A DNA stretch of 8,441 nt from Beijerinckiaceae bacterium (lineage in GTDB: Bacteria > Pseudomonadota > Alphaproteobacteria > Rhizobiales > Beijerinckiaceae), in contig CANCSY010000131.1 of assembly GCA_947380915.1 (NCBI GenBank), forward strand, positions 1 to 8,441. The letters are read 5' to 3'. The first letter of the stretch is position 1. Each line of letters starts with the position of its first letter. Both the position numbers and the translations under genes were made by a program. This document shows, in pieces, positions 1,728-8,441 of this stretch. The notes beneath the pieces are model-generated. The model searched no databases. It was not told where the DNA came from and saw only the letters and a list, made by a program, of their open reading frames with translations.

Positions 1728-2342
1728 TTGTCGAACATATTGAAACTGCGTCCCCATGGCGCCGAGCACATGCAGCTCGATCTTGCGCTTTTCCATCAGC
1801 GGATCCGCGCCGCCGATACGGCAGAGGATCCGCCGGTGGCGCAGGCCTTCGATTATGACCAGTGGCGCGAGGCTCTGGCGCGTGATCTGGCGCAGAGGTC
1901 CGTGCTGATCTCCATGGCGCTGGACCAGGCGGGCGTGAAGGCTCAAGGCCCCTCGGCTCGCCGGGTGGCGGCGGGCGCGCTGGTTGGCGTGACCCTCTTT
2001 GGCGCGGGCGCGGTGGGCGCGTTGCGCAGCGTCGTGAAGCCGGCGCCGCCCGTCACTCGTCTGGCCATGATCGAGATCGTTCCACCAGCCGCCGTTTCTG
2101 AGCTCGTGGCCGCCACGCCCAATCTGGCGCGGGCGGCCTCCCTCGATCCCATGCCCACCTCGACCATTCCCGCGCCAAAGCCGACAAGCCTGACGGCGGG
2201 CCCACAGGCCCGGAAGGCGGGGGCTCAGAAGGCTGACCCGGCGCCGAAAAGCATAGTCATGCCGGTCCCTCGCCCGCAGGCGCGCGTGGCGACGCCCGAC
2301 CTCACCTCCTCGGTCGAAGCCTTGCTGGCGAGCGCGCGCTAG
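1728..2342 (+). CDS. Single-pass membrane protein of unknown function
   Basis: I do not recognise the family. The protein has 204 residues. The N-terminal part, about 1-79, is soluble-looking and helical, with a charged acidic/basic mix that includes FDYDQWREALARDL near 41-54. A single hydrophobic segment spans about 80-99, flanked by Arg78-Arg79 and Arg100/Lys104. The C-terminal half is low-complexity and rich in Ala, Pro and Lys (about 104-190), ending in a short helical stretch. Two basic residues before the segment favour an N-in, C-out orientation with a disordered extracytoplasmic tail. The chosen start is TTG, supported by GAGAGG at 1717-1722 with a 5-nt gap; the first in-frame ATG is residue 15 and has a poorer upstream site. 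The stop overlaps the convergent oxidoreductase gene by 4 nt in a shared CTAG. GC-rich codon use resembles the neighbours, so it looks native. Confidence 0.75.
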   Translation: MSNILKLRPHGAEHMQLDLALFHQRIRAADTAEDPPVAQAFDYDQWREALARDLAQRSVLISMALDQAGVKAQGPSARRVAAGALVGVTLFGAGAVGALRSVVKPAPPVTRLAMIEIVPPAAVSELVAATPNLARAASLDPMPTSTIPAPKPTSLTAGPQARKAGAQKADPAPKSIVMPVPRPQARVATPDLTSSVEALLASAR

Positions 2343-3337
2343 AGCGGCAGGAGACGCCGCACCCGCCGCAGGAAACCCGCCGGGGCCTCCGGGCGTGCGG
2401 GTTCGAAGGCGTCCGCGAAACAGGCCGCGCCCTGTTCGCGGGCCAGATCCTTCACGGCGCCCACCAGTCCCGGCGCGCCGCAGACATAGACGAGATCACG
2501 GTTGGAGAGCGGCGGCAGGAAGGCCAGCGGACTGCCGACCGCAAAAGGCCCCTCGGCTGGGCCTTTCGACACCACCGGAAGCGCCTGCACCCCCGGAAAA
2601 GCGATCACCCGCAGCAGGCTCTCGCCCATGTAGATCGATTCGCGGGCGCGCGAGCCCGCGATCATCACGATCTCCCGGTCTGGCGCTTCGGCGAGCGCCG
2701 CATGGGCGATGGCCCAGATGGGCGCAAAGCCGGTGCCGCTGGACACGAGCACGAGCCGTTCGGTCTTGCCCGGCCGCAGCCAGGCGGCGCCGAAGGGGCC
2801 GGTGAGCCGCAGCTTGTGACCAGGGCGGATCGCCTTGCCAAGGGCGCCGGAGACCCGCCCGCCAGGCACCTGGCGAATATGAAACCGCAGGGTCTCGCGC
2901 TCCGCCGGGCCTTCAAGGGGCACGGTCGGGCTGAACGCGCGCTCCGGCAGGCCCTGAAAGCGCAGGCGCACATATTGGCCGGGCATATAGGCGAAGGGAC
3001 GCGCGGGGACGATGGTCGCCTCGACCACATCCTCGCCGCGAAACACCAGCGCGCTCACATGGGCGGCCATGGTCTCCACCGCCGGGACCCTTTCGACGGC
3101 AATGGCGATGTCGGAGGTGATCTTGCTTTGGCAGGCCAGCACATAGCCCGGCTCGCCGCTCCAGCCGCCCTCCACCTCGCCCTCAACCAGCCGCACGCGG
3201 CAGGCGCCGCAGCTGCCCGCGCGGCAATCGTGCGGCAGATCCACATGGCGCGCGAGCGCCGCATCAAGCAGCACCTCGCCGACGCTGACGGCGAAGGCTC
3301 CCTGATCAAGAATCCTGACCTTTACGGACCCGCTCAT
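2339..3337 (-). CDS. [2Fe-2S] ferredoxin / FAD / NAD(P)H oxidoreductase
   Basis: A 332-residue soluble electron-transfer flavoprotein with no signal peptide or membrane helix, therefore probably cytosolic. The order is plant-type ferredoxin domain (about 1-85), flavin-binding barrel (about 90-190) and pyridine-nucleotide-binding domain (about 195-315). The cluster ligands are Cys38, Cys43, Cys46 and Cys69 (C-X4-C-X2-C-X22-C). The flavin region has YMPGQYVRLRF and RAFSPTVP, a Phe version of the usual RxYS motif. The nucleotide domain has SSGTGFAPIWA and YVCGAPGL. This architecture matches reductases of multicomponent oxygenases and CDP-glucoseen reductase-like proteins. The ATG overlaps the upstream cytochrome gene's stop as ATGA and has a strong GGAGGT site, so the two are translationally coupled. 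No oxygenase component is nearby, so the likely partner is the membrane cytochrome. It ends in an unusual basic tail, FLRRVRRLLPL. Preference for NADH or NADPH cannot be read. Confidence 0.9.
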   Translation of the reverse strand: MSGSVKVRILDQGAFAVSVGEVLLDAALARHVDLPHDCRAGSCGACRVRLVEGEVEGGWSGEPGYVLACQSKITSDIAIAVERVPAVETMAAHVSALVFRGEDVVEATIVPARPFAYMPGQYVRLRFQGLPERAFSPTVPLEGPAERETLRFHIRQVPGGRVSGALGKAIRPGHKLRLTGPFGAAWLRPGKTERLVLVSSGTGFAPIWAIAHAALAEAPDREIVMIAGSRARESIYMGESLLRVIAFPGVQALPVVSKGPAEGPFAVGSPLAFLPPLSNRDLVYVCGAPGLVGAVKDLAREQGAACFADAFEPARPEAPAGFLRRVRRLLPL

Positions 3338-5061
3338 GGCGCCACCTCCAGTTTGATGGGGCGTATATGCCGGGTATGGCGCGCCGCCGTATGGTCGAAG
3401 ACGGCGACGAACATATGCGCGCCCTTGGCGAGCGCGATGTCGTCCGGGTCGCCCGTGTCGAGCTTGCGTTTGGCGATGAGGGTCCAGCGGTTGGCGGCCC
3501 AGTGGGCGGCGCAGGCCACATCGTTCGCTTCGAAGGGGCGGGCCTGGGGGACCAAAAGTCCGGGAATGATGGCGCCAGCGGGGATCAAGGCGTCCAGCAT
3601 CGGGGAATAGGGGACAGAGTCCGCCTCGCTCATCGCCCAGCGCGCGTCCGCCCCCTCGCTTTGATCGGAATCGAGGATCAGCGGCCCGGTGGCGGCTTGC
3701 GAGGCGGCGAGATCGGCCGGCAGGCGCAGGGGGATGACCGGCGCATCGACCTTGGCCGTCGCGCGGCGAAAATTGTCGGGGACGCTGGCCTTGTTCCCCG
3801 CGCCATGGACGCCGCCCCGGTAGGGCGCGAGACCCGCAGTCTGCGCCGGGGAGGCGGGCTGCGGTCCGCCGATGTGACCGGTCTCGCATCTGCCAGCCGC
3901 CGGGCCCGCCGCCGCATGCCAGAGCCAGACATCAACGTGGTCGCCATCGGTCGTGTAGTGCAGCCCGCGCCCTGACGCCGAGGCTGGCTTGTCAGGCAGG
4001 GGCCGGGCGCCGGGATGGAAGGCCCCGGGGCCGAAGGGCCTGGCCGTGGGCGTCAGCATGACCGAGAATTTGTCCTCGGCGTAGGCGCCCTCGAAAATGG
4101 CGCTGTCGCGACGCCCGGGGTTCATCAGCTCGGCCGCGCTCTGCGCCGCCTGGCTTTCATGCATGAGCAGGCGCCAGCCATCGGCGCCCTTCACCAGCGG
4201 AAAATGTTTCGTGGAACGGGTGGAGTCCTCCCAGGTGAAGGCGAACCACGCGTCAACGCCATCATGCACCGCCCTGATTTCAACGGAGGCCTCCCCGGTG
4301 TCCTCGAGATTGGCGCCCTGCTGGGTGCGCACCCGCAGCGGCCTTGCGGCGCGCCAGGCACCCTGCGTCAGATCGCCGGACAGCGAGGGCGCCGAGGCCA
4401 CGCGCGCGATGATGAGCGTGTCGCGCGACAGACGATCATATTCGAACCAGCCGACGCCCACAGCCGCAGCCGCAGCCAGGGTTGCGCCCGCGATCCGGAA
4501 GCTGCGCGGAACCAGCGCGTCCGTCTTGCCTGCCTGCCGCGACGCAGGGCGCAGCACGCGCAGCAACTGCACCAGTCCCCCGTGGGCCGCATGGGCCAGG
4601 ACATGGGCGAGCGTGTAGAGCAGGATCATCCAGGTGACGAAGAGATGCAGGGCCACGGTGGCGCCGCCAAAGCCACGATGCAGCATGAGCCCGGTGACGA
4701 CCTGGGTGGCGAGCAGCGCGAACAGCAGCCAGTAGAGCATGACATTGAGGGCCGCCCATGGCTCGGAGGCGATCCGCGCCAGACGCGCGCCGTCAAGCCT
4801 GAGCCGTCCGGTCAGGCCGCTGCCATGGATATAGATCGGATAGGCCGCCGCCAGAGCCATCACCCCCACGCCCGCGACGATATGCAGAAACCAGACATTG
4901 CTGGCGGGCAGGAAGGCGGCGATCATTCCCAGCAGGCCCGCGTCCGGCCCGTCGGCGGCGATCTTCAGGCCGGTCGTCAGACAAACCGAGAGGGTCGCGA
5001 CCAGCGACCAATGCAGCGCAATGGTTCCGGGATCTGTTTTTCGCTTGGGTTTCGGCGCCAA
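3334..5061 (-). CDS. Di-heme cytochrome b fused to ethylbenzene-dehydrogenase-type heme domain
   Basis: A 575-residue membrane protein from the TTG at 5061. Five hydrophobic helices lie at about 13-33, 55-74, 103-127, 134-158 and 188-206. His17, His60, His139 and His153 sit in helices 1, 2 and 4, and the 14-residue spacing of the last pair matches di-heme cytochrome b subunits such as FdnI. Basic loops (RLRLDGARLAR; LLRVLRPASR) put the N-terminus and both inter-helix loops inside, so the region after helix 5, about 210-575, is extracytoplasmic. That part resembles the ethylbenzene dehydrogenase heme-b domain family, with AWFAFTWEDSTRSTKHFPL, EDKFSVMLTP, HVDVWLWHA and YRGGVHGAGNK. AGGAG seven nt upstream supports this start; a TTG at 5151 and an ATG at 5088 are in-frame alternatives without comparable sites. 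It overlaps the oxidoreductase gene by ATGA. Probable role: passing electrons from the cytosol across the membrane to an unknown periplasmic acceptor. Confidence 0.85.
   Translation of the reverse strand: MAPKPKRKTDPGTIALHWSLVATLSVCLTTGLKIAADGPDAGLLGMIAAFLPASNVWFLHIVAGVGVMALAAAYPIYIHGSGLTGRLRLDGARLARIASEPWAALNVMLYWLLFALLATQVVTGLMLHRGFGGATVALHLFVTWMILLYTLAHVLAHAAHGGLVQLLRVLRPASRQAGKTDALVPRSFRIAGATLAAAAAVGVGWFEYDRLSRDTLIIARVASAPSLSGDLTQGAWRAARPLRVRTQQGANLEDTGEASVEIRAVHDGVDAWFAFTWEDSTRSTKHFPLVKGADGWRLLMHESQAAQSAAELMNPGRRDSAIFEGAYAEDKFSVMLTPTARPFGPGAFHPGARPLPDKPASASGRGLHYTTDGDHVDVWLWHAAAGPAAGRCETGHIGGPQPASPAQTAGLAPYRGGVHGAGNKASVPDNFRRATAKVDAPVIPLRLPADLAASQAATGPLILDSDQSEGADARWAMSEADSVPYSPMLDALIPAGAIIPGLLVPQARPFEANDVACAAHWAANRWTLIAKRKLDTGDPDDIALAKGAHMFVAVFDHTAARHTRHIRPIKLEVAP
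3344..3349 (-). promoter_or_regulatory. Ribosome binding site GGAGGT for the oxidoreductase
   Basis: On the minus strand GGAGGT lies 6 nt before the ATG at 3337, inside the last codons of the cytochrome gene. It fixes the start at 3337; the open frame continues upstream to about 3889 but only as an overlap shadow of the cytochrome gene. Confidence 0.8.
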
Positions 5062-5068
5062 TGATTCA

Positions 5069-5073
5069 CTCCT
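5069..5073 (-). promoter_or_regulatory. Ribosome binding site AGGAG deciding the cytochrome TTG start
   Basis: AGGAG on the minus strand lies 7 nt before the TTG at 5061. From that codon the protein begins with a short basic peptide (MAPKPKRKTD) followed directly by the first heme-binding helix, as expected for a cytochrome b N-terminus. Confidence 0.65.
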
Positions 5074-5105
5074 GGCCTCCGCGCGCATGGCATGCGCAAA
5101 ACGGA

Positions 5106-5127
5106 GGCAGGGCGATTGAACCCTGCC
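5106..5127 (-). promoter_or_regulatory. Hairpin GGCAGGG/CCCTGCC upstream of the cytochrome gene
   Basis: A perfect 7-bp inverted repeat with an 8-nt loop lies about 45 nt upstream of the TTG start. Read on the minus strand it is followed by TCCGTTTTGCG, a weak T-rich tail. It may act as a leader hairpin or attenuator for the cytochrome/oxidoreductase unit; this is inferred from position only. Confidence 0.4.
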
Positions 5128-5181
5128 GCAGCGTTCATTTTGGGGCGCCAATGGGGCAGCGGGAGCGAAGCGGCAATTGCG

Positions 5182-5220
5182 AAAAAAGCCGCCCCCATGG
5201 GCGTGGCCCGGGGCGGCTTT
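5182..5220 (-). terminator. Rho-independent terminator, minus strand
   Basis: A perfect 11-bp stem (AAAGCCGCCCC at 5185-5195 with GGGGCGGCTTT at 5210-5220) encloses a 14-nt loop. On the minus strand the stem runs into six consecutive T residues (5187-5182), which is the classic form. On the plus strand only TTT follows before mixed sequence, so it would be weaker that way. No minus-strand gene ends immediately upstream; the nearest is modC, whose stop is at 6082. Confidence 0.75.
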
Positions 5221-5348
5221 CCTGTGTTCTCACCCCATGGCCTCAGCGCCAGTACATCCGTGGTCGCGTGGCGGATGGGGTGGAATCGCGCCCCGTTTCC
5301 AAGGCCTTATGGAGATATGGGACGGCTTGCGGGAAAAGCAAGCTGGGC

Positions 5349-5371
5349 CGCCAAAAGCGCGGGCTTTGGCG
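5349..5371. repeat. Inverted repeat CGCCAAA / TTTGGCG
   Basis: A perfect 7-bp inverted repeat with a 9-nt spacer (AGCGCGGGC). No T-run follows on either strand, so it is not an obvious terminator. It lies about 180 nt upstream of the small plus-strand gene at 5553 and close to another dyad at 5382-5398. Confidence 0.4.
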
Positions 5372-5381
5372 AAAGTCCTTG

Positions 5382-5398
5382 TATTTTCGGCAAAAATA
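5382..5398. promoter_or_regulatory. AT-rich dyad TATTTT-N5-AAAATA, possible operator
   Basis: A perfect 6-bp inverted repeat with a 5-nt spacer (CGGCA) stands out in otherwise GC-rich DNA. Its size and symmetry fit a dimeric regulator binding site, but I recognise no specific regulator motif. It could serve either flanking transcription unit. Confidence 0.35.
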
Positions 5399-5409
5399 GC
5401 CACATGAAG

Positions 5410-5433
5410 AGGATCGGTATTTGGCCAGATCCT
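5410..5433. repeat. Inverted repeat AGGATC / GATCCT
   Basis: A perfect 6-bp inverted repeat with a 12-nt spacer. The outer bases partly extend the pairing (GAAG before it, CTTC after it) with a 2-nt bulge. Its function is unknown. Confidence 0.3.
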
Positions 5434-5484
5434 TCGTCTCCGCCCCCGCTTGAGCAAGCCGGCGCCTTCAGAGTTTCCCCAGAT

Positions 5485-5505
5485 GCGACCATCTGATCCG
5501 GTCGC
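5485..5505. repeat. Inverted repeat GCGACC / GGTCGC upstream of small gene
   Basis: A perfect 6-bp inverted repeat with a 9-nt spacer lies about 48 nt upstream of the ATG at 5553, in the probable leader or promoter region of the two small genes. No T-run follows. Confidence 0.3.
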
Positions 5506-5552
5506 GCCGCCGTCGGGGGGCCTTCGAAACCCCGTTGCGAGGAGAACGACAC

Positions 5553-5798
5553 ATGCGCCTTTACATCTTCAAGTCCGAGAGCAAGCCCGACATCGGCGCC
5601 TTCGCGGGCGACGGGGCGGGCACGAAGCTGCCCAAGAACTTCGCGCCTTGGCGCGTGGTCGGGCTCGTCTCCGCCAAGCGGGCGCCGCCCCATGGCCTGC
5701 CGCGCGCCAAGATCGAGGCTGGCATCGAGTCAGCCGGCTACCAACTCTGGCGCGTCAAGAAGCCCGCGCCCGTCGCCGTGGCTGAAGAAACAGCCTGA
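5553..5798 (+). CDS. Small conserved-looking hypothetical protein, 81 aa
   Basis: Function unknown. The protein is soluble, with no signal peptide or membrane helix. It starts with a beta-strand-like MRLYIFKS, continues through GAFAGD (15-20) and LPKNFAPWRVVGLVS (26-40), then has a PPHGLPRAKIEAGIESAGYQ segment with a predicted helix (about 50-61) and ends with YQLWRVKK and a disordered acidic tail. The well-formed strand/helix pattern, the aromatic residues and the high-GC codon use argue for a real gene. It resembles small hypothetical proteins I associate with Rhizobiales, from memory only. The ATG at 5553 has GAGGAG at 5539-5544 with an 8-nt gap; a TTG at 5535 would overlap that site and is unlikely. 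The next small gene starts 29 nt after its stop, suggesting one transcript. Confidence 0.8.
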   Translation: MRLYIFKSESKPDIGAFAGDGAGTKLPKNFAPWRVVGLVSAKRAPPHGLPRAKIEAGIESAGYQLWRVKKPAPVAVAEETA

Positions 5799-5827
5799 GG
5801 CGACCCGGCCCCAACAGGAATCCATGA

Positions 5828-6085
5828 ATGTCCGATATTGATCACTCGAAAGCCGCTGTCGATCGTCGGCCCGTCAAGCGTGGGCAATATGCCCGGTTTG
5901 TCGTGTCCGTCGACCGCCAGATCAAGAGCAGCTTCGACACGCGCGCCGAGGCGCAGGTCGAGGCTGACCGTCTCAGCGCCAAATTCGCCAATCTGACCAT
6001 TGCGGTGAACGATTCGCAGGAGCCGCTCATCCGCGAATCCGCCAGCGAGCCCGAAAGCCTCGAGACCGCCAGCGCTCAGGATTAA
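5828..6085 (+). CDS. Small hypothetical protein, 85 aa
   Basis: Function unknown and family not recognised. After a charged, probably flexible N-terminus (1-19), residues 20-62 read as a compact strand-strand-helix-strand unit: [14 protein letters not shown], helix [15 protein letters not shown], then LTIAVND. The C-terminal tail from about 63 is acidic and Ser-rich ([16 protein letters not shown]) and likely disordered. There are no cysteines, signal peptide or membrane segment. AGGA at 5816-5819 with an 8-nt gap supports the ATG at 5828; an ATG four bases upstream is closed by a stop after five codons. It follows the 81-aa gene by 29 nt, probably in the same transcript, and its TAA overlaps the convergent modC TAA within a TTAA. 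Confidence 0.75.
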
Positions 6086-7179
6086 CCGGTGTGGCGTGGC
6101 GTGAGCGCCGCGCCCTTCACCTGCGCATGGACAACAAGGCCCGGCGCCAGAGCCAGCTGGTCCCATGACCTGCGCGTGACGCGCGCCAGAAGATGGGCGC
6201 CCGCGCCATCCTCCCCCAGGCCCAGCACGGCGGTCATCTGATGCTCGCCGCTTTGGCGCGCGTCGAGAACCCGCGCGGGCAAGATGTTCACGATGGTGCT
6301 GCCGCTGGGCGCCGCCAGCGCCAGACTCACATCCCCCGCCAGAACCCGTAGCCGCCTGCGCTCGCCCACCTGCGCCTTGAGCGCGGGGACGAGAAAGACG
6401 CCCCCCGCCACCTTCAGGGTCGCCAGCCCATAGGCGATGTCGCAGGCGATCACTTCGCCCTCGAGGCTCACAGCGGCGTCCCGCGCGCCCATGAGCGGGA
6501 GGGCGGGATCGCTCTGCATCTGCGCCAGAGGTCCTGCGCCGATGACGCGCCCCTTCTCCATCAGGATGATCTGGTCAGCGAGGCGCTCCACCTCGGCCAT
6601 GTCATGAGTCACATAGAGGACCGGCAGGGACAGGCGCTCGTGGAGCTGCTCCAGAAAGGGCAGGATCTCCTCGCGCGCCGCCCGGTCGAGGGCCGAGAGG
6701 GGCTCGTCCATCAGCAGCAGGCGGGGCCGCGACAGCAGCGCCCGGCCGATGGCGACCCGCTGGCGCTCGCCCCCTGACAAGGTGAGGGGCGCGCGGTCCA
6801 GAAGCGGCGCCAGCCCCAGCAGGGCCACCGCCTCGTCAAAGCCGAGCAGCGGCTCGCCGGTGGCGGCGCGGGCGCCAAAGAGCAGATTGCCGCGAACGCT
6901 CAGATGGGAAAAGAGGCTCGCCTCCTGAAACACATAGCCGATGGGCCGCTGGTGAACGGGGCGGAAGCTGGCGCCGTCTTGCCAGACCTCCCCCTTGATC
7001 GCCACATGGCCGCTGGCCGCCCGGTGCAGGCCCGCGATGCAGCGCAGCACCGTCGTCTTGCCGCTGCCGGAGGGGCCGAAGATGGCGGTCACGCCCCGAC
7101 CCGGCGCCTCGAAAGAGGCGTCGAGGGCGAAGGCGCCGCGCTGGTCGCGCAGGCGCACCGTGATCGCGGCGTCGGTCAT
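6082..7179 (-). CDS. modC: Molybdate ABC transporter ATP-binding protein ModC
   Basis: The ATPase that powers molybdate import through ModB at the inner face of the membrane. It has 365 residues, close to the usual ModC length. Visible motifs are Walker A GPSGSGKT (35-42), Q-loop Gln85, ABC signature LSGGERQ (134-140), Walker B LLLMDEP (154-160) with Glu159, D-loop SALD (162-165) and switch His192 in YVTHDM. The region after about 290 has the pattern of the ModC C-terminal TOBE/Mop domain, including [10 protein letters not shown], a segment that binds oxyanion and can regulate transport. The ATG overlaps the modB stop as ATGA and has GGAGGT seven nt upstream (7187-7192 on the forward strand). 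The open frame continues upstream of this start only as an overlap shadow of modB. Its TAA overlaps the convergent 85-aa gene. Confidence 0.96.
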
Positions 7180-7862
7180 GGGGCGAACCTCCCCATGCGT
7201 TTCTCCACAAAGCCCATGGTGAGGATCACGACAAAGGAGAAGACCACCATGCCCGCCGCCAGCGCATGGGCTTCGGGCCATCGCGAAGTCTCCACGAAAT
7301 CGAAGATCGCCACCGACAGGACCTTGGTGACGCCGGGAATGTTCCCGCCGATCATCAGCACAACGCCAAATTCCCCCACCGTATGGGCGAAGCCCAGAAT
7401 GGCTCCGGTGAGGAATCCGGGCCGGGCCAGGGGAACCGCCACGCGCCAGAAGGCCCGCCAGGGCGAGGCCCGCAGGGTCGCCGCCGCCTCCATGGGCCGA
7501 TCCCCCATGGCCGCGAAGGCGTTGCGGATGGGCTGCACCACGAAGGGCAGGGAATAGAGCACCGAACCAATCACGAGGCCCGCGAAGGAAAAGGCCAGAG
7601 TGCGCGCCCCCCAGAGGGAGGCGATGGCGCCGCCGGGACCATCGGGGCCCAGCATCACCAGAAGATAAAAACCCAGAACTGTGGGCGGCAGCACCAGCGG
7701 CAGGGCCACCACGGCGGCGACGATCTGCGCCCACCAGCTTCGCGAGCGCGCCAGCCACCAGGCGATGGGCGTGGCCACGACCAGCAGGATCGCGGTGGTG
7801 AGGCTCGCCAGCTCCAGGGTGAGGAAGATGGGCCGCCAGATGTCAGGGGAGAGGCCGAACAT
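7176..7862 (-). CDS. modB: Molybdate ABC transporter permease ModB
   Basis: Membrane channel subunit of the molybdate importer. From the ATG at 7862 it has 228 residues, the normal ModB length, with about five hydrophobic helices (near 13-37, 46-71, 88-107, 150-170 and 197-219). The cytoplasmic EAA loop that docks with ModC reads [20 protein letters not shown] from about 125. [14 protein letters not shown] (55-68) and [20 protein letters not shown] are characteristic of ModB. GGAG seven nt upstream supports this start; an in-frame start eight codons earlier (7886) would lie inside modA. The gene begins just after the modA stop, with a single base between them, and overlaps modC by ATGA, giving the tight order modA-modB-modC. 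Confidence 0.95.
7187..7192 (-). promoter_or_regulatory. Ribosome binding site GGAGGT for modC
   Basis: On the minus strand GGAGGT lies 7 nt before the modC ATG at 7179, inside the end of modB. It fixes the modC start and indicates coupled translation. Confidence 0.75.
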
Positions 7863-7863
7863 G

Positions 7864-8441
7864 TCAGTTCTCCGCCCCCGCTTCATAGCCGTAAAGCTCG
7901 ATGATGGCGCGGGCCTGCGAGCCCCTCAGAAAGGCGAGGAAGGCAAGGGCGGGTTCCTTCCCCGCGCCGGTCTTGAGCAGCACTGCGTCCTGCAGGATGG
8001 GCTTGTGCAGGGACTGCGGAACCAGCCAGCGGCTTCCATCGCTCCGACCGATCACCTGCGCCAGCGCCACGAAGGCCAGCTCCGCATTGCCGGTTTCGGC
8101 GAACTGGAAAGTCTGGGCGATGCTGGCGCCCTGCACGAGGCGAGGCGAGAGCTCGTCGTAAAGCCTGAGGGCTTTCAGGGTCTCGATGGCCGCGCCGCCA
8201 TAGGGGGCTGAGGCCGGATTGGCGATGGCGATCTTGCCGGGCCCCCCCGCCCGCAGCGCAGCCTCCCCCTGCGCGGCGCGCGTATCCCGGCTCCACAGGG
8301 CTAGCCTGCCGATGGCGTAGGTGAAGCGCGTCTCCCCCAGCGCAAGACCCGCCGCCACGGCCTGCCGGGGCCGCTCCTCATCCGCCGAGAGCAGGACCTC
8401 ATAGGGGGCGCCTTGGGTGATCTGCGCATAAAGCGCCCCCG
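7864..8441 (-). CDS. modA: Molybdate-binding periplasmic protein ModA, 5'-truncated by window edge
   Basis: Periplasmic substrate-binding protein that captures molybdate (and usually tungstate) and delivers it to ModBC. About 191 C-terminal residues are present; the signal peptide and first ligand-binding segment lie outside the window. The frame is open to the window edge and starts with [19 protein letters not shown], the typical ModA region where the ligand pocket begins. Further landmarks are [25 protein letters not shown] (ending about fragment residue 81), and [15 protein letters not shown], all in ModA order. The start codons inside this fragment, such as a GTG at 8358, are internal. 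It ends with YGYEAGAEN one base before modB. Promoter and any ModE-type operator would be upstream, beyond the window. Confidence 0.95.

Follow-up and report, generated by a model that had tools for sequence, protein, structure and literature searches.

In the eukaryotic CYBDOM proteins, such as the ferric reductase CRR of Arabidopsis, a cytochrome b561 with two membrane hemes and an outside heme domain of the DOMON type form a single chain that exports electrons (PMC10784552). In bacteria, the Fre-MsrQ(-MsrP) system and the NADPH oxidases (NOX) pass electrons from a cytosolic NAD(P)H flavoprotein via a heme-containing membrane protein to the periplasm (PMC11031084). Here, we describe a gene pair in a stretch of 8,441 nucleotides from a Beijerinckiaceae bacterium (GCA_947380915.1, contig CANCSY010000131.1), which is called the window throughout. 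The pair encodes CYBEB, in which a membrane domain of the cytochrome b561/Ni-hydrogenase type (PF01292) is fused to an EB_dh domain (PF09459), and the reductase RED with its [2Fe-2S], FAD and NAD(P)H domains. The computation establishes which domains and folds the proteins have, how they lie in the membrane, that the candidate ligands do not vary and that the pair is conserved, and we propose, with a probability of about 60%, that the two proteins are a dedicated module for transmembrane electron export. Very probably, the pair is a real and conserved electron-transfer unit that is new in its combination and in its predicted heme ligation, but not in its basic principle. It would add one route to the few quinone-free ones known for the electrons of NAD(P)H across the bacterial inner membrane, and it would do so with familiar parts.

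The predicted architecture of CYBEB resembles that of the CYBDOM proteins, but the membrane domain belongs to PF01292, the outside domain is a C-terminal EB_dh domain, the predicted heme ligands are His/His rather than Met/His, and a coupled NAD(P)H reductase would replace ascorbate as the electron donor. The membrane proteins of Fre-MsrQ and NOX, in contrast to CYBEB, are of the ferric reductase domain (FRD) family, and a third heme domain is absent from these systems; moreover, Fre has no [2Fe-2S] domain, unlike RED. At E≤0.01, Pfam detected only PF01292 and PF09459 in CYBEB, and thus neither the FRD of the NOX family nor the eukaryotic-type CYB561/DOMON combination of CYBDOM. Because the Pfam families differ, RED-CYBEB belongs to neither Fre-MsrQ nor CYBDOM.

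The first-pass annotation of the window had placed two genes coupled by an ATGA at 2339..5061, and both open reading frames were indeed found there with an overlap of four bases. The features of the pair are the following:

3334..5061, minus strand: fusion protein CYBEB, 575 amino acids, PF01292 membrane domain plus EB_dh domain
5069..5073, minus strand: Shine-Dalgarno-like AGGAG, 7 bases 5' of the CYBEB TTG start at 5061 (read directly)
4423..5061, minus strand: CYBEB membrane domain, residues 1-213, with helices 11-36, 56-80, 101-128, 134-170 and 186-211
5011..5013, minus strand: codon of His17, predicted to bind the heme near the cytoplasm together with His153 (alignment, model)
4882..4884, minus strand: codon of His60, predicted to bind the membrane heme near the periplasm together with His139 (alignment, model)
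4645..4647, minus strand: codon of His139, predicted ligand with His60 (alignment, model)
4603..4605, minus strand: codon of His153, predicted ligand with His17 (alignment, model)
3337..4422, minus strand: periplasmic EB_dh beta domain, residues 214-575 (Pfam, fold)
3958..3960, minus strand: codon of His368, at the heme-ligand Met site of EB_dh-type gamma subunits (motif comparison with 2ivf_C/7b04_C)
3376..3378, minus strand: codon of His562, which falls on the Lys that binds heme in EB_dh-type gamma subunits (hhalign)
3334..3337, minus strand: ATGA overlap of the CYBEB and RED genes, four bases (sequence)
2339..3337, minus strand: reductase RED, 332 amino acids, [2Fe-2S]-FAD-NAD(P)H
3083..3337, minus strand: RED ferredoxin domain with cluster cysteines 38, 43, 46 and 69 (Pfam, alignment)
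2405..3082, minus strand: RED FAD and NAD(P)H domains (Pfam, structure model)
2342..2404, minus strand: RED C-terminal tail with a predicted amphipathic and basic helix, 322-329 (sequence, model)

By direct reading, RED starts with the ATG at 3337, which is preceded at a distance of 6 bases by GGAGGT. The database version of CYBEB (P0003, 584 amino acids) has a longer N-terminus, and its length implies a start at the in-frame ATG at 5088.

The assignment of CYBEB to PF01292 is based on both the profile score (33.8 bits, cut-off 30.1, residues 10-163) and the fold. The AlphaFold2 model (predicted local distance difference test, pLDDT, 87.0; predicted template modelling score, pTM, 0.86) consists of five long helices followed by a beta domain. 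We aligned 44 fusion proteins, i. e. those of 42 loci from 40 genomes, of one Bradyrhizobium plasmid locus and of the window. In this alignment, lysine and arginine are abundant in the loops assigned to the inside (means of 2.5, 5.6 and 4.6) and rare in those on the outside (1.2 and 0.1). The five helices and this distribution of charges place the large domain outside, in agreement with the earlier topology. At exactly six sites, 17, 60, 139, 153, 368 and 562, histidine is found in every row that has a residue there. The first four had already been read as the pattern of a di-heme cytochrome b, and these heme-ligand histidines of PF01292-type proteins are all present and invariant (His17 in all 43 rows that are not gapped at this site; His60, His139 and His153 in 44/44). 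The positions of the helices suggest that His17 pairs with His153 and His60 with His139. His157 and His349 were ruled out as ligands, as they are conserved in only 40 and 37 of the 44 rows, respectively. By fold, the membrane part is related to FdnI, HyaC and CybB, from which CYBEB differs by the fused EB_dh domain and by its partner, a soluble NAD(P)H reductase.

The C-terminal domain matches the EB_dh family by profile (96.5 bits, gathering cut-off 33.3, residues 235-565) and adopts the fold of the gamma subunit of ethylbenzene dehydrogenase (EbDH), so that the family membership suggested in the first-pass annotation holds. In its periplasmic domain, CYBEB thus resembles EbDH gamma, the heme b subunits of type II dimethyl sulfoxide (DMSO) reductases and NxrC, both by fold and by sequence. 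However, it differs from them by the replacement of Met/Lys by His/His, by the fused membrane cytochrome, and in that no type II molybdenum partner was seen in the loci and genomes searched; its score with TIGR03477, the type II DMSO reductase gamma family, is 16.4 bits at a curated cut-off of 169.85. In EbDH, the heme b is bound by a methionine and a lysine and has a high potential that suits high-potential acceptors (PMC8840923). An hhalign comparison of the domain with four gamma-type sequences (probability 99.3) placed His562 on the lysine of the motif GRKSYS in 2ivf_C, and the methionine in the MG..RPVNAWYW motif of this protein corresponds to His368 in LHYTTDG..VDVWLW. Judging from the motif and the residue numbering rather than from coordinates, we take Met112 and Lys222 to be the acting ligands in 2ivf_C. 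Histidine occupies both corresponding sites in 44/44 rows, the nearby His557 and His565 are less constant (41/44 and 43/44), methionine reaches at least 70% only at site 477 (35/44), and lysine at least 90% only at sites 291 and 331. With histidines at the sites that correspond to Met/Lys, we predict from the sequences a third heme with bis-His ligation by His368 and His562. Such a heme would be expected to have a lower potential than a Met/Lys heme, which is what a route starting at NAD(P)H would require. This opens a testable question: does the exchange of Met/Lys for His/His convert an EB_dh heme that accepts electrons into one that delivers them?

A protein search with CYBEB yielded 181 relatives. 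Among the 120 that were listed, one of them the window protein itself, 119 combine the two domains in a single chain and one has EB_dh only; their database names include Bradyrhizobium, Methylobacterium, Rhodomicrobium and Rhodoblastus. Genome surveys with CYBEB as the query gave matches in 5 of 398 genomes for the phylum around E. coli, all of which recur in the search of the order of G242. There, 20 of 297 genomes matched, 15 with the fusion (about 5%, centre included) and 5 with weak EB_dh-only matches. Two overlapping surveys of one family gave 18/149 and 29/397 genomes; G716, which matches weakly and by EB_dh only, is counted in both, and the fragment G919 in the second. A scan of genome contigs with a single sequence returned one match, which was spurious (EB_dh in 0 of 41 relatives of that genome). 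Before counting, the weak EB_dh-only loci L082-L087, beside which no reductase match above 50 bits was found, and the fusion fragment L109 were dropped; in L109, a reductase match lies in the same stretch as the fragment. The adjacency of the two genes, for which a survey had been suggested, is conserved: in 43 of the 44 fusion loci, RED immediately follows CYBEB in the same orientation, with 3 to 216 bases between the two matches in the loci other than the window, and among the loci that keep the pair the identity of CYBEB to P0002 is as low as about 36%. In the exception, G704 (L059/L125), RED is located on another contig, beside the sensor and binding-protein genes by which the pair is accompanied in other loci. 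The pairwise distances of RED and CYBEB correlate (r 0.88, 43 rows), as vertical descent alone could also bring about.

RED scores above the gathering thresholds of Fer2 (52.9 bits), FAD_binding_6 (32.9) and NAD_binding_1 (35.3), and its four cluster cysteines are kept in 43/43 rows. Its C-terminal tail is possibly a membrane-docking element: the tails are net positive in 39 of 43 proteins, a count that has no control set for comparison, and the pLDDT of the helix region is about 56-66. A protein search with RED gave 431 relatives, of which 120 were listed. At least 12 of the 33 best CYBEB homologs are on a contig whose length equals that of a contig with a listed RED homolog, which was taken as no more than a first hint of linkage. 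The best curated and Protein Data Bank (PDB) matches of RED are reductases of oxygenases or P450 enzymes, and RED has the same [2Fe-2S]-FAD-NAD(P)H order as the BenC type. It could therefore serve an oxygenase encoded elsewhere and stand next to CYBEB incidentally, a case already considered in the first-pass annotation to which we give hardly any credence: the scores of RED are far under the family cut-offs (116.9 bits for the BenC family NF040810, cut-off 430), its gene partner is a membrane cytochrome, and it accompanies the fusion almost without exception. In the 10 of the 40 fusion-bearing genomes that were searched, all of them genomes other than that of the window, 12 RED matches at E≤1e-20 stand against 11 fusion copies, the surplus being a partial second match in G787, and this nearly one-to-one ratio is unlike that of a general oxygenase reductase. 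Finally, no oxygenase was found among the 25 annotated of 30 recurrent neighbour clusters (clusters 13, 19, 28, 30 and 31, three of them from dropped loci, were left out; the clusters were computed without L099-L108, and non-recurrent genes were not annotated as a set).

In the export module that we favour, RED probably sits at the inner membrane face and would take a hydride from NAD(P)H onto FAD. Single electrons would then leave through the [2Fe-2S] cluster and enter CYBEB at the heme b near the cytoplasm (His17/His153), move on to the heme b near the periplasm (His60/His139), and finally reach the third heme b (His368/His562) in the periplasmic EB_dh domain, which would act as an exposed outlet that reduces some periplasmic substrate. 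The occupancy of the hemes and the direction of the electron flow are what we infer. A self-contained route from NAD(P)H through two membrane hemes to a periplasmic one had been put forward in the first-pass annotation, and the profiles, the fold, the topology and the conserved pair support it. As the acceptor, we tentatively prefer ferric iron or another small metal or oxyanion oxidant, as for the plant CYBDOM reductases; a specific protein partner would be our next choice.

Several points weigh against this scheme. The acceptor is proposed purely by analogy. The AlphaFold2 model lacks cofactors. In the window protein, His368 is one residue out of register with the methionine, in a loop of variable length in which hhalign opened a gap. 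The EB_dh fold is also common to the CBM9 sugar-binding modules, and a heme-free domain with a CBM9-like binding or sensory role, in which case the wire would stop at the second membrane heme, is improbable. Moreover, FdnI, HyaC and CybB exchange electrons with quinones, so a quinone could take part in CYBEB as well. Electrons might even flow in reverse, from a periplasmic donor such as superoxide, as for CybB, through CYBEB to a quinone, to RED or to both. This is slightly less improbable than a heme-free domain, but RED is built like the reductases that oxidise NAD(P)H, and the EB_dh domain lacks the Met/Lys pair typical of a high-potential heme.

As the known EB_dh proteins are gamma subunits of molybdenum enzymes, CYBEB might be one as well, with the enzyme encoded elsewhere. 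The molybdate transporter genes modCBA lie near the pair in the window (6082-8441, minus strand) and are not conserved neighbours. ModA/ModB matches beside the pair recur, weakly and distantly, only in L081, and therefore this neighbourhood is treated as incidental; a molybdenum partner suggested by modABC was thus rejected, with no sign that these genes belong to the module. The 25 annotated clusters (of 30) contain no type II molybdenum alpha subunit. Of the 40 fusion-bearing genomes, all other than that of the window, 31 were searched with TIGR03479, the corresponding family, and none gave a match above its cut-off; G538 was a near miss (872 bits, cut-off 984.75). Matches below the threshold occur in 31/31 of these genomes, and 11 of 14 control genomes have a match, one of these being over the cut-off. 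Within these searches, the lack of a molybdenum subunit nearby, as noted in the first-pass annotation, thus holds for type II subunits, to which the statement is limited. In L077, a gene region for [2Fe-2S] and molybdopterin subunits of the xanthine dehydrogenase type (3888-6620, plus strand) is separated from the pair by about 10 kb, and the fetched stretches L058 and L071 also have the [2Fe-2S] subunit of this type at their margins. However, this molybdenum type differs from the one served by EB_dh subunits, and it occurs in three loci only, at least 7 kb away. With the Met/Lys ligands missing in addition, a role of CYBEB as a gamma subunit is very improbable.

The tree of the 44 fusion proteins is split into clades of 10 and 34 rows (support 99/95), and the window belongs to the smaller one. 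In this clade, the fetched stretches contain type I secretion genes in seven rows, in six of them (L050, L051, L067, L078, L079 and L080) accompanied by related proteins without known function, five of which have a His-rich tail that closes with WG (HHLHHMWG type); in the seventh, L099, the end of an HlyD gene is seen. The fetched stretches of the larger clade contain a PstS-like binding protein (PF12849) in 29 rows and a match to a sensor, either a methyl-accepting chemotaxis protein (MCP) or a GGDEF-EAL protein, in 31 rows (both near the pair in L052-L055, L057, L058, L060-L066, L068, L071-L075, L100-L108 and L002; in L125, they adjoin RED alone). A link to phosphate through the PstS-like protein was not adopted: three tested copies scored 82.0, 72.5 and 58.3 bits at a curated cut-off of 206.6, and in the one copy compared the motif of the phosphate site is changed, with REDADSTL in place of REDGSGTR of 4gd5. 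The window itself has neither the secretion genes nor the PstS-like and sensor genes.

These neighbourhoods bear on the idea that the same wire feeds one dedicated periplasmic protein, which might be a repair enzyme similar to MsrP, a cytochrome c or a copper protein. There is precedent, since in E. coli Fre feeds MsrQ, which in turn feeds periplasmic MsrP (PMC11031084), and subunits with an EB_dh domain are known to transfer electrons (PMC8840923); the neighbours in the clade of the window include type I secretion genes and a secreted-looking protein with a His-rich end. However, no periplasmic redox enzyme is a constant neighbour among the 25 annotated clusters (of 30), and the redox neighbours that do occur are a short-chain dehydrogenase/reductase (SDR, six loci) and the xanthine dehydrogenase-type [2Fe-2S] subunit (three loci). 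We therefore regard a dedicated protein as an unlikely outlet.

It is a somewhat less doubtful speculation that the export module is an independently built prokaryotic equivalent of CYBDOM, made from PF01292, an EB_dh domain with re-invented bis-His ligation and a reductase with a plant-type ferredoxin, and that it acts with a PstS-like binding protein and a chemotaxis or cyclic di-GMP (c-di-GMP) sensor in a redox-linked sensing system in the larger clade, and with a secreted protein in that of the window. DOMON, CDH and 2IVF have been described as having the same fold (PMC4846438). In the open-access literature, we found no description of a b561-EB_dh fusion or of the gene pair: where the term occurs in the text of PMC12542776 that was available, it names an NxrC-like Nitrospira protein, and in that of PMC7789669, PF09459 appears in tables only. 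Proteins that are now named only "ethylbenzene dehydrogenase-related" would gain partners and neighbours.

The remaining genes of the window and one further locus deserve brief mention. On the plus strand, a partial hemE followed by the aerobic hemF (1-1625) places heme synthesis genes near the gene of a heme protein; no match to them above 60 bits was found in 43 related fetched stretches. Two small genes without a Pfam family (5535-5798 and 5828-6085, plus strand) lie between the pair and modC. In L110 (1381-2958, minus strand), a protein of 525 amino acids shows, by eye, another EB_dh-like architecture, in which a gamma-type domain for heme b is joined to two stretches with CxxCH motifs and to a hydrophobic stretch at the C-terminus. 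Finally, a gene for 204 amino acids without a Pfam family (1728-2342, plus strand) is convergent to RED, and in the nearest relative of the window, L099 (62%), which has the HlyD gene end upstream, a relative of this gene occupies the same place downstream (3749-4423, minus strand).

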